A stretch of DNA of 64,000 nt from assembly GCF_004403065.1 (NCBI RefSeq), contig NZ_SOHA01000006.1, positions 1-64,000 on the forward strand, in the 5' to 3' direction. Below the pieces are notes generated by a model, which was not told the origin of the DNA, searched no databases, and worked only from the letters and a program-made list of their open reading frames with translations. Positions 2,932 through 47,195 of this stretch are shown here, piece by piece. The DNA comes from Cryobacterium cryoconiti. GTDB lineage: Bacteria > Actinomycetota > Actinomycetes > Actinomycetales > Microbacteriaceae. The first letter of the stretch is position 1. Every line of letters starts with the position of its first letter. The translations under genes were made by a program, and so were the position numbers.

Positions 2932-3120
2932 GACTCCCTCCCACACAGCGCAGTCGGTGAACCGACGGCGCCGGGACCCGACCGCAACACTGACGACCTC
3001 ACCACCCTAGACGCGTCCGCCCGCGCGGGCGAGGTGCCGGGCTCCCGACCGCCCGAGTCCGGGCATCCGTTCGCGGTCGCGGCTCGCGCGCCCACCGCCC
3101 AGACGGATGCCTCAGCAACT

Positions 3121-3178
3121 GTTCGCGTTTCGGACGAATGTTGCCGATACACGGGCAACATACGTCCGAAACGGCAAC
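3121..3178. repeat. Family E inverted repeat, copy 1
   Basis: 25-nt arms (3121-3145 and 3154-3178, two mismatches) with core GTTTCGGACG and an 8-nt loop. The element lies in a longer direct repeat: 3101-3202 and 3257-3358 are nearly identical, both starting AGACGGATGCCTC and ending GAGAGCGGCGCGGC. The 435-nt stretch between the MFS stop and the VanZ start holds these two repeats and no credible gene. Confidence 0.88.
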
Positions 3179-3276
3179 ACTTGCGAGGGAGAGCGGCGCG
3201 GCAGGGCAGCAGCCGGGCAAAGCGCGGCAGCACCGCCGCCATCGTGCGGCCTCGCGAGACGGATGCCTCGCCAACT

Positions 3277-3334
3277 GTTCCCGTTTCGGACGAATGTTGC
3301 CGGCACACGGGCAACATACGTCCGAAACGGCAAC
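3277..3334. repeat. Family E inverted repeat, copy 2
   Basis: Same structure as copy 1: arms 3277-3301 and 3310-3334 around GGCACACG-type loop sequence. It is part of a roughly 100-nt direct duplication (3101-3202 / 3257-3358) just downstream of the MFS exporter gene. A more diverged third copy is at 40772-40837. Confidence 0.88.
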
Positions 3335-3367
3335 ACTTGCGGCGGAGAGCGGCGCGGCCCGCGCGCG

Positions 3368-36997: not shown

Positions 36998-37061
36998 AGA
37001 GTGCCCGTTCCGGTCGAGAGTGCCCGCTCTGCGGGTCACTCTCGACCGGAACGGGCACTCT
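36998..37061. terminator. Family F: perfect 25-bp inverted repeat between convergent genes
   Basis: Arms AGAGTGCCCGTTCCGGTCGAGAGTG (36998-37022 / 37037-37061) are perfect complements. The 14-nt loop itself has a CCCGC/GCGGG inner stem. It lies between the anti-sigma gene and convergent hpaD. No U-tract follows, so it may block transcription by structure or be an intergenic palindrome. Confidence 0.6.
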
Positions 37062-40771: not shown

Positions 40772-40837
40772 AACTGTTGCCGAATCGGACGAATGTTGCC
40801 GGTGTGCGGGCGACTTTTGTCCGATTCGGGAACAGTT
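40772..40837. repeat. Family E inverted repeat, copy 3 (diverged)
   Basis: Inverted repeat with AACTGTT...AACAGTT ends and core CCGAATCGGAC / GTCCGATTCGG. The core resembles copies 1 and 2 (GTTTCGGACGAATGTTGCC). It lies in the 148-nt gap between GntR and the DapA-like gene, within the operon. Confidence 0.8.
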
Positions 40838-45715: not shown

Positions 45716-45729
45716 GCCAACTCAGGAGA
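45716..45729 (+). repeat. Family B half-site GCCAACTCAGGAGA
   Basis: A 14-nt copy of the family B left arm lies about 80 nt before the IclR start. It is followed by GCCCGGACCAGTGCGGC, which also follows the full copy at 45992. This suggests a partial duplication. Confidence 0.75.
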
Positions 45730-45885: not shown

Positions 45886-45978
45886 GCATAACTCCTGCAA
45901 ATTGTGCGGGCCGAATCGTGCTTCCGCGGATTTCCGCGGGTGGGGTCCGGTTCCTGGACCAAATTGCAGGAGTTATGC
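45886..45978. repeat. Family A inverted repeat, copy 2
   Basis: Arms GCATAACTCCTGCAAATTG (45886-45904) and CAAATTGCAGGAGTTATGC (45960-45978), with one mismatch. The 55-nt loop is unrelated to those of copies 1 and 3. It sits between divergent genes. Confidence 0.9.
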
Positions 45979-45991
45979 CGAGCGTGCCGTG

Positions 45992-46093
45992 GCCAACTCA
46001 GGAGATTGTGGATGGGGGCGATTGAAACGGCACGGACCAGTGCGGCCGAGCGCAGGCATGGGGTGACCACCGCACCTTGTCTCCTGAGTTGGC
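45992..46093. repeat. Family B inverted repeat
   Basis: Perfect 14-nt arms GCCAACTCAGGAGA / TCTCCTGAGTTGGC around a 74-nt loop that contains CGGACCAGTGCGGC. It starts 13 nt after family A copy 2. Confidence 0.88.
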
Positions 46094-46197
46094 AACCGGG
46101 GTCCGGTTGCCCGGTTCGTGCAATCGTGCGCTCCCGCCGCGCATCCGTGCGCCGACGGGCAAGACGGGCGGGCGAGACCGGCCTATCGTGAGCCGAA

Positions 46198-46878
46198 ATG
46201 AATGAGATCTGGGTGTCCGCGTGCCTGGTCGCCACGGTTGCGGCAGCCGGCCTGGGCGCGGGCTGTGCGCTCGCCGGGCTCCGGATGCCGGGCCACGCCA
46301 GGGTCGCGGCTCCGGCCATGGTCGTCATGGCCGTCTCGTGCGCCGACATGGTGTTTCCCGATATGCGGCTGCTCGCACCCCTGCCCTGGGCGGCACTGCT
46401 GGTCGGGTCGGCGTTGCTGGCCCTGCTCGACCGGGCTCACCGCGGGGCCGCCGCTCACCACGCCGCGTCCCTTCTTCTGATGGCGGTGATGTGGGCGGCG
46501 ATGCTGCCGACCTCGGCGACCTCGGCGACCTCGGCGACCTCGGCGATGTGGGCGACGTCGGGGGCCACCGCCAACGCCGCCGCAGCCGGAACCGCAACTG
46601 CAGCCGGAAGCGTAGCGGTCGGGCCCGCCGCGGGAAGCGACCCGCATGCCGGGCATGAGCTGGCGTTCACCGACGGTGATTTGCTGCTGGCCGGGCTCAT
46701 GGCGCTGGTTGTGGCGGCATCCGTTGCGCTCGCGGCCGGCGCCGTGCGGTCGGCGCGCCGCCCGGCCGAGGAGGGGGCAGCCCCGGTGCTCCAGCTCGAG
46801 TCGGCCCAGCATCTGAGCATGGCGGTGGCAATGGCGTCAATGGCGGCGGGGATGTTCTTGCCACTGGTCAGCGGCTGA
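46198..46878 (+). CDS. Hypothetical multi-pass membrane protein
   Basis: A 226-aa protein with about five hydrophobic segments (ACLVATVAAAGLGAGCALAG, APLPWAALLVGSALLALLD and others). A (TSA)n low-complexity loop encoded by GACCTCGGC repeats precedes the last two helices, along with a short GSDPHAGHELA His-containing patch. ATG 46198 follows TATCGT by 8 nt. The Met/His-rich helices (MAVAMASMAAGMFLPL) could bind metal but this is weak. I do not recognise the family. Confidence 0.65.
   Translation: MNEIWVSACLVATVAAAGLGAGCALAGLRMPGHARVAAPAMVVMAVSCADMVFPDMRLLAPLPWAALLVGSALLALLDRAHRGAAAHHAASLLLMAVMWAAMLPTSATSATSATSAMWATSGATANAAAAGTATAAGSVAVGPAAGSDPHAGHELAFTDGDLLLAGLMALVVAASVALAAGAVRSARRPAEEGAAPVLQLESAQHLSMAVAMASMAAGMFLPLVSG
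46505..46545 (+). repeat. 9-nt tandem repeat GACCTCGGC in the membrane-protein gene
   Basis: Four in-frame GACCTCGGC units encoding TSATSATSATSA. In-frame expansion as in several other genes of the window. Confidence 0.85.
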
Positions 46879-46984
46879 GCATCAGCCGACCTTGGCTCGG
46901 CGCGGACTCAGGGCAGCCGGGAGTATCTCCATCCCGTGGACTGGCCCGCCTCCGCCTTCGGCTGGGGATGCCTGCCTGCGTGTG

Positions 46985-47081
46985 GGGGCTAACTCTGGAG
47001 CTGCGTCGCGGCACCCGCAATTAGCCGCCCCAGTCCGGGCCCCCGCGGTCAACCGCCACCTGGATCCCCTGAGTTAGCCCC
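46985..47081. repeat. Family C inverted repeat
   Basis: Arms GGGGCTAACTC (46985-46995) and GAGTTAGCCCC (47071-47081) around a 75-nt loop. It lies 19 nt upstream of family A copy 3. The 451-nt gap 46879-47329 holds C, A3, a GACGGCC tandem and the trmH promoter. Confidence 0.85.
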
Positions 47082-47100
47082 ACGTTGGAGCCCGCCCCGG

Positions 47101-47195
47101 TGCATAACTCCTGCAAATCGTAGGACAGCCGGCTGCGTTCCCGGTGTTTCAGGGGACGGCGGATCCGGCACCGATCAAATTGCAGGAGTTATGCA
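47101..47195. repeat. Family A inverted repeat, copy 3
   Basis: Arms TGCATAACTCCTGCAAATCG (47101-47120) and CAAATTGCAGGAGTTATGCA (47176-47195), two mismatches, 55-nt loop. Confidence 0.9.

Follow-up and report, generated by a model that had tools for sequence, protein, structure and literature searches.

The window considered here is the whole 64,000-nucleotide stretch of Cryobacterium cryoconiti DNA that was analysed (contig NZ_SOHA01000006.1, positions 1 to 64,000). It contains three copies of an intergenic inverted repeat, here called A elements, together with elements that carry a second type of arm, here called B, as follows:

Positions 2344-2424, no strand assigned: A1, arms 2344-2362 and 2406-2424 with 0 mismatches; short class, 77-bp core.
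Positions 45716-45729, plus strand: a single B-type arm (half copy), followed by a stretch in common with the B element, CGGACCAGTGCGGC.
Positions 45886-45978, no strand assigned: A2, arms 45886-45904 and 45960-45978 with 0 and 1 mismatches; long class, 89-bp core, central palindrome CTTCCGCGGATTTCCGCGGG.
Positions 45992-46093, no strand assigned: B-arm element, GCCAACTCAGGAGA ... TCTCCTGAGTTGGC.
Positions 46987-47079, no strand assigned: decayed B-type element, GGCTAACTCTGGAG ... CCCCTGAGTTAGCC, AACTC..GAGTT 85 bp.
Positions 47102-47194, no strand assigned: A3, arms 47102-47120 and 47176-47194 with 1 mismatch each; long class, 89-bp core.

The three A copies and their paired arms had been reported in an earlier sequence-only reading of the window; they are real and had been placed correctly to within a base, the third being present but one base shorter at each end than the 47101-47195 given for it. 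The window has six matches to the A arm, compared with 0 in 100 shuffles. The B element at 45992-46093 is the sole match in the genome to AACTCNGGAG N(50-80) CTCCNGAGTT, its arms are of the type that flanks the diverged nuclease allele of related species (below), and we read it as a relic.

In the 3.43-Mb C. cryoconiti genome (46 contigs) the A arm core CATAACTCCTGCAA, with up to one mismatch allowed, is found 27 times in each orientation, and these matches combine into 27 pairs; the reversed control of the core gives 0 matches in the whole genome. The ATAACT..AGTTAT core lengths are 77 (8 copies), 88 (7) and 89 (12) bp. A scan of named genomes for the A arms found at least 111 stretches, and among the 80 stretches listed the hosts are chiefly Cryobacterium, with Rhodoglobus, Lacisediminihabitans, Microbacteriaceae MAGs and one Bacteroidetes MAG (L133), the last of which we put down to chance. 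A looser pattern is present in 15 of 398 genomes drawn from the family, which belong to 4 of its 85 genera. Across Cryobacterium species the strict copy number ranges from 0 to 25, in searches that favour intact arms and in assemblies that are drafts. The search of the genome and of other Microbacteriaceae for paired arms that the sequence-only reading had proposed therefore yields 27 pairs at home and more in relatives, and the copies are neither few nor confined to transcript 3' ends.

All 27 of the C. cryoconiti pairs lie between genes called by a simple gene caller (one runs 6 bases into the end of a gene, and another is close to the end of its contig). Among the 158 copies from all loci, 142 could be classed by the gap in which they lie (13 others are at locus edges and 3 overlap called genes), and 73 of these are in tandem, 42 in convergent and 27 in divergent gaps. 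The background of 609 gaps longer than 60 bp in the same loci comprises 346 tandem, 102 convergent and 161 divergent ones, so convergent gaps are somewhat over-represented among the copies (42 of 142 versus 102 of 609). The earlier statement that copies occur in gaps of all three orientations is thus confirmed over a much larger set, and no T run follows the A copies of the window, in agreement with its observation that there is no U-tract and that the copies are not simply terminators.

The spacing of the arms is quantised in two classes. In 157 of 157 distinct A copies collected (158 from fetched loci, less the Bacteroidetes copy) the TAACT..AGTTA distance is 74-75 or 84-87 bp, the individual lengths being 86 (82 copies), 87 (40), 75 (29), 85 (4), 84 (1) and 74 (1); the patterns used for fetching permitted lengths of 66-96 and 70-100, and the C. 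cryoconiti copies were located by single arms. Loops of the long class have a palindromic centre and those of the short class have A/T patches with a period of ~10 bp, so the earlier description of the loops as lacking similarity does not hold. The two halves of an element vary independently: among 115 non-redundant copies (24 of length 75, 57 of length 86 and 34 of length 87) the halves did not covary, agreement at symmetric positions giving z values of -1.6 to 1.8 in 15 tests against halves re-dealt among elements, the largest of which was equalled in 42 of 1000 shuffles. The A element therefore has the properties of a symmetric duplex-DNA site and not of a hairpin; each half is apparently read alone in the duplex, and it is spacing, not base pairing, that couples the two. 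Identity in 100 same-length orthologous pairs (out of 172; the pairs are not independent, and their flanking matches are ~85% identical) is 85% in the outer 4 bp, 80% at arm positions 13-16, 73% in the centre, 56% in the spacer and 46% in the ungapped flank, and the value of 99% at arm positions 1-12 is raised artificially by the way in which the copies were searched for.

Could the A elements nevertheless act as an RNA hairpin, a terminator, an attenuator or a cruciform? They are intergenic inverted repeats and are somewhat enriched in convergent gaps, which speaks for such a function. An intrinsic terminator, however, would be a hairpin rich in G+C that lies at a transcript end and has a T run after it. 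The A elements do not fit this description: the copies of the window lack the T run, and tandem and divergent gaps are occupied as well. The independence of the halves argues against all of these structures; we have rejected the RNA hairpin, terminator and cruciform readings on that basis and give this group of explanations next to no credence. The sequence-only reading had offered a mobile element or a protein-binding DNA or RNA hairpin; the hairpin finds no support in the halves, and what stands is protein-binding DNA, miniature mobile DNA, or both.

The loops also bear on mobility. Among 351 pairwise comparisons of C. cryoconiti loops, 2 pairs are clearly related and 2 more are weaker but above shuffles, partly through the common centre. 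One of the clear pairs is a tandem pair on contig C16; the other is A1 (window position 2344) and the copy at C33:94, which agree at 40 of 52 bases and have unrelated flanks, and this comparison, which had been suggested earlier, again contradicts the view that the loops are unrelated. Copying of a whole element to an unlinked position has thus happened at least once, though rarely or long ago, and the small number of copies with common loops means that whole-element copying is rare or loop decay is fast. At three places where relatives lack the element, the aligned flanks were too diverged for junctions or a target-site duplication to be recognised. Dispersed intergenic inverted repeats with a few related loops might be taken for an ordinary MITE, a non-autonomous transposon moved by a conventional transposase. 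MITE copies share their interiors, however, and here nearly all C. cryoconiti pairs have unrelated ones, only the arms, the spacing and the centre being kept; in addition, the element type tracks the allele of a nuclease-like gene (below). We therefore regard a conventional MITE as very unlikely. Integron attC-like sites were considered and, on their general features, tentatively set aside.

A copies ~1.1 kb apart recur in pairs, and those inspected at one locus lie on either side of a gene that encodes a protein of ~296 amino acids. In C. cryoconiti this gene is on contig C41, outside the window, and has elements on both flanks; its neighbours are an FGGY kinase gene (glpK by sequence) and a HAD hydrolase gene followed by a class I tRNA synthetase gene (trpS by sequence). 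The window's own 1.2-kb pair brackets another gene, whose product has no Pfam match. In Pfam searches the C-terminus of the partner protein matches DUF559 above the cut-off and REase_MTES_1575 below it, and AbiEi_4 matches the N-terminus in one relative only (L072, E 5e-4, below cut-off), with no AbiEi domain detected by Pfam in the C41 protein itself. PADLOC gives a weak AbiEi match (E 0.0012, L072) and a weak match to Hhe as well, and the NCBIfam profiles give no match. A structure model built from nine sequences (pLDDT 59.6, which is weak) has an N-terminus that resembles a winged helix and a nuclease fold that is predicted better. Its top five Foldseek matches, all with E values of at least 0.04, are a Vsr endonuclease, AbiEi, I-Bth0305I and two mitoribosome chains, one of the latter ranking first; the AbiEi match, 6y8q, has an E value of 0.07. 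The match to I-Bth0305I, a homing endonuclease that we take to be of the EDxHD family, concerns the catalytic-domain fold (Foldseek probability 1.00, E ~0.1); unlike that enzyme, the partner has many dispersed sites, and its gene occupies a fixed locus with a site on either side. An alignment of nine proteins shows no variation at the candidate catalytic residues E195, D222, D234 and H239, and all 48 loci examined (46 distinct genes) carry a loose E-x-D-x(3,4)-H pattern. The partner is thus predicted to consist of a Vsr/DUF559-type nuclease at the C-terminus and, on weaker profile matches, an AbiEi-like N-terminal domain. A RAYT or IS200-like transposase had been suggested as the enzyme to look for; there is indeed a partner gene, but it encodes a predicted nuclease of the Vsr/DUF559 type and not an IS200-type transposase.

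Homologues of the partner are present in 53 of 57 genomes of the genus, and do their alleles and the arms beside them change together? Genes 67-100% identical to that of C. cryoconiti (A-type) have TAACTCCTGCAA elements, or close variants of them, on their flanks, and genes 53-60% identical (B-type) have GGCTAACTCAGGAGA elements or close variants; other arms, AATGCAGGATGC and AATTCAGGAGT, are found beside more distant homologues. The A- and B-type genes are at one locus (the neighbouring genes could be identified at 20 of the 22 A-type loci and 12 of the 15 B-type loci), and in four genomes (L196, L197, L200 and L201) glpK is 94-97% identical to that of C. cryoconiti, yet the allele is B. The correspondence extends genome-wide. 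All 10 of the B-allele genomes have elements with B arms, in 2-18 copies, versus 1 of 10 others, and the spacing of distinct B matches in fetched loci is 75, 85-87 or 98 in 33 of 35 cases, the others being 106 and 109. The variant A arms beside the gene recur elsewhere in G006 (4 pairs, one with a single arm) and in G001 (2 pairs, 350 bp apart). Strict A copies average 7.3 in 15 A-allele genomes versus 1.5 in 22 genomes without that allele (p 0.004), with many exceptions: 3 of the 15 have zero strict copies but 2, 5 and 8 under the looser pattern, and 1-6 strict copies persist in each of 11 of the 22, where we read them as relics. The co-occurrence of the gene with strict A arms is therefore only partial, and variant arms explain part of the discrepancy but not all of it. 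The B-type elements of the window at 45992-46093 and 46987-47079 are consistent with a past B-allele regime in C. cryoconiti. In one genome (G028), which holds two strict A elements, there is a gene fragment at C15:44389-44538 that is 60% identical over 50 amino acids and has a stop codon, and sites may therefore outlive the gene.

The flanks of 14 of the 27 C. cryoconiti elements were looked up in four relatives, picked by choice, and 13 places could be traced in G454, in G011 and in G369 (14 rows per genome correspond to 13 places because two elements 194 bp apart share one). These 39 places and one from G025 were fetched and their arms were scored by a fixed rule, which gave 0 in 860 on shuffled segments. 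In G454, which has the B allele, 8 places were BB, 1 BA and 4 none; in G011, also with the B allele, 5 were BB, 1 ?B, 1 BA, 1 ??, 1 AA and 4 none; and in G369, which has the A allele, 8 were AA and 5 none. In the gap orthologous to that of A3, G454 has a B element and G011 has one element of each type, and next to the one AA site that G011 retains there is a B element. At L045_7862 the loops are plainly homologous and the arms differ, GCATAACTCCTGCAAATTCTCGGATTCGGG in C. cryoconiti and GGCTAACTCCGGAGAATTCTCGGATTCGGG in G454; at places such as L039_7586 both loop and class differ, so replacement occurs too. One further intergenic place has an A-arm element in L142 (3546-3637) and a B-type element in L138. 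The arm sequence thus follows the nuclease allele, beside the gene and genome-wide.

We consider it probable that the A element is a symmetric duplex-DNA site of the AbiEi-like/Vsr-type nuclease encoded on C41. The conserved arms, the spacing classes, the independent halves and the gene flanked on both sides are directly observed; binding, nicking and spread are what we infer from here on. Cooperative binding of AbiEi monomers to inverted repeats bends the promoter DNA (PMC7319586), and protomers of the partner would bind the inverted arms in an allele-specific manner, as AbiEi does at its own promoter. Spacing steps of about one helical turn would bring both arms to the same side of a bent or wrapped duplex, and the nuclease domain would nick inside the complex so formed. 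Less surely, this nicking activity may spread or renew elements in intergenic DNA in a RAYT-like manner, the locus of the gene staying fixed. Sites, once present, would be retained, and their arms would come to match the resident allele, through either point changes or replacement. Any benefit of the system to its host we likewise infer.

The sites of the same protein might instead be immobile and serve regulation or chromosome organisation, the gene being flanked by them through autoregulation. The behaviour of AbiEi at promoters (PMC7319586), the conservation of arms and centre beyond that of spacer and flank, the in-situ arm change with a homologous loop at L045_7862 and the occupation of the same intergenic places across species are all in keeping with this idea. 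It accounts less well for elements downstream of the gene and in convergent gaps, for a strict copy number that varies from 0 to 25 between species of one genus, for the dispersed copy with a homologous loop and unrelated flanks, and for a loose nuclease motif present at every locus examined; we give it somewhat less than an even chance. Alternatively, the elements could be sink or antidote sites that hold a harmful nuclease bound and inactive, in which case a host that acquired an allele would need matching sites. The sites' following of the allele, and arms that are kept while spacers drift, would then be explained, but some genomes that carry the gene have few strict sites, and we think this unlikely.

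How general is a site-flanked nuclease gene? When two flanks of a gene were scored positive if they had at least five 11-mers in common, 39 of 46 AbiEi/DUF559 genes (50 loci, with two that had no BLAST hit and two repeats dropped) were positive versus 12 of 268 controls (p 6e-32), the controls excluding eight loci with AbiEi/DUF559-type genes and one of the 12 being itself a gene of that type. In other genera of the Microbacteriaceae (18 of 30 loci usable) 10 of the 15 genes that have the nuclease motif were positive and none of the 3 that lack it, versus 2 of 27 controls. For AbiEi_4 genes order-wide (23 of 30 loci usable) the signal is weak, 6 of 23 versus 2 of 27 controls, and the positives are 3 of 6 genes with the motif and 3 of 17 without it. 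The genuine AbiEi/AbiEii pair of C. cryoconiti (C9, L321) has no flank words in common. AbiEi-like/Vsr-type nucleases are common in the Microbacteriaceae.

The arrangement is known for REP/RAYT and is here found on an unrelated enzyme. As described in PMC2817692 and PMC8049555, REP/RAYT systems have an enzyme gene between two inverted palindromes (here, 39 of 46 genes by the flank-word test), dispersed palindromes, co-evolution of repeat and enzyme, repeat abundance that tracks the presence of the enzyme, and an enzyme gene that is not itself multiplied. By the same sources RAYT is an IS200/IS605-like tyrosine transposase, whereas the Pfam families of the partner are REase_MTES_1575, DUF559 and AbiEi_4. 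REPs are 20-40 bp hairpins in which complementarity is preserved, and often number in the hundreds; the present elements are 75-98 bp long with fixed spacings and halves that do not covary, and number in the tens. Membership thus fails on enzyme family and on hairpins, and we read the likeness as convergence. The AbiE system (PMC7319586) resembles ours in the N-terminal domain (weakly) and in inverted repeats that adjoin the gene, but here a Vsr-type nuclease replaces the antitoxin C-terminus and the sites are dispersed genome-wide; no AbiEii/DUF1814 toxin gene lies beside the partner gene, the neighbours being the kinase, hydrolase and synthetase genes named above. The Caulobacter protein VsrA also has a PD-(D/E)XK Vsr-type nuclease domain with DUF559, and in Caulobacter cells that lack its methylase a DUF559 Vsr-like protein causes an SOS response; the available part of PMC12907096 proposes action at a methylation motif and mentions no AbiEi domain or cognate repeats. 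MTES_1575 is named, in the available part of PMC3710099, only as the Vsr-type domain of a fused protein. The titles and abstract openings of open-licence PMC articles gave no description of the partner protein family together with repeats.

A large nuclease family (DUF559/MTES_1575 with an AbiEi-like N-terminus) thereby gains a partner and hence a testable role, and the findings suggest that evolution can build the REP-RAYT arrangement around an unrelated enzyme, with no need of hairpins. The allele swap that occurred naturally, with its genome-wide change of sites, offers a system in which the co-evolution of a DNA-binding enzyme and its sites can be studied, and bears on whether such repeats serve the host or themselves.

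A second AbiEi-type gene of C. cryoconiti (L322 1935-2924, on contig C40; its AbiEi_4 match is below cut-off) is flanked by compact GGCGCACGTTCTAACGTGCGCC palindromes, the core of which matches 39 distinct places in the genome with up to 3 mismatches, two of them adjoining the gene; the reversed control gives 0. This gene and its dispersed palindromes form a parallel system in the same cell. On balance we favour, somewhat less firmly than the assignment of the A element itself, the view that AbiEi-like/Vsr-type nucleases supply the enzyme in a whole class of dispersed-palindrome systems, of which one genome has several and which arose independently of RAYT/REP; in them the resident allele would dictate the sequence of tens of duplex sites and an allele swap would lead to their rewriting.

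Two further AbiEi/DUF559-type genes of C. cryoconiti have palindromes nearby: L217 1962-2864 (C33) lies between palindromes with TTACTGAGGAGATT-like arms, and L218 2038-2862 (C22) has a 27-nt palindrome close by. The window itself contains compact palindromes at 3110-3345, 36998-37061 and 40772-40837, with arms of 28-31 nt and an 8-nt centre, in which AATGTTGCC or GAGAGTGCCC half-sites are repeated in direct and inverted orientation. Their architecture differs from that of the A family, to which they were not assigned, and is like that of the palindrome that flanks the C40 gene; they are possibly sites of other AbiEi-type proteins.
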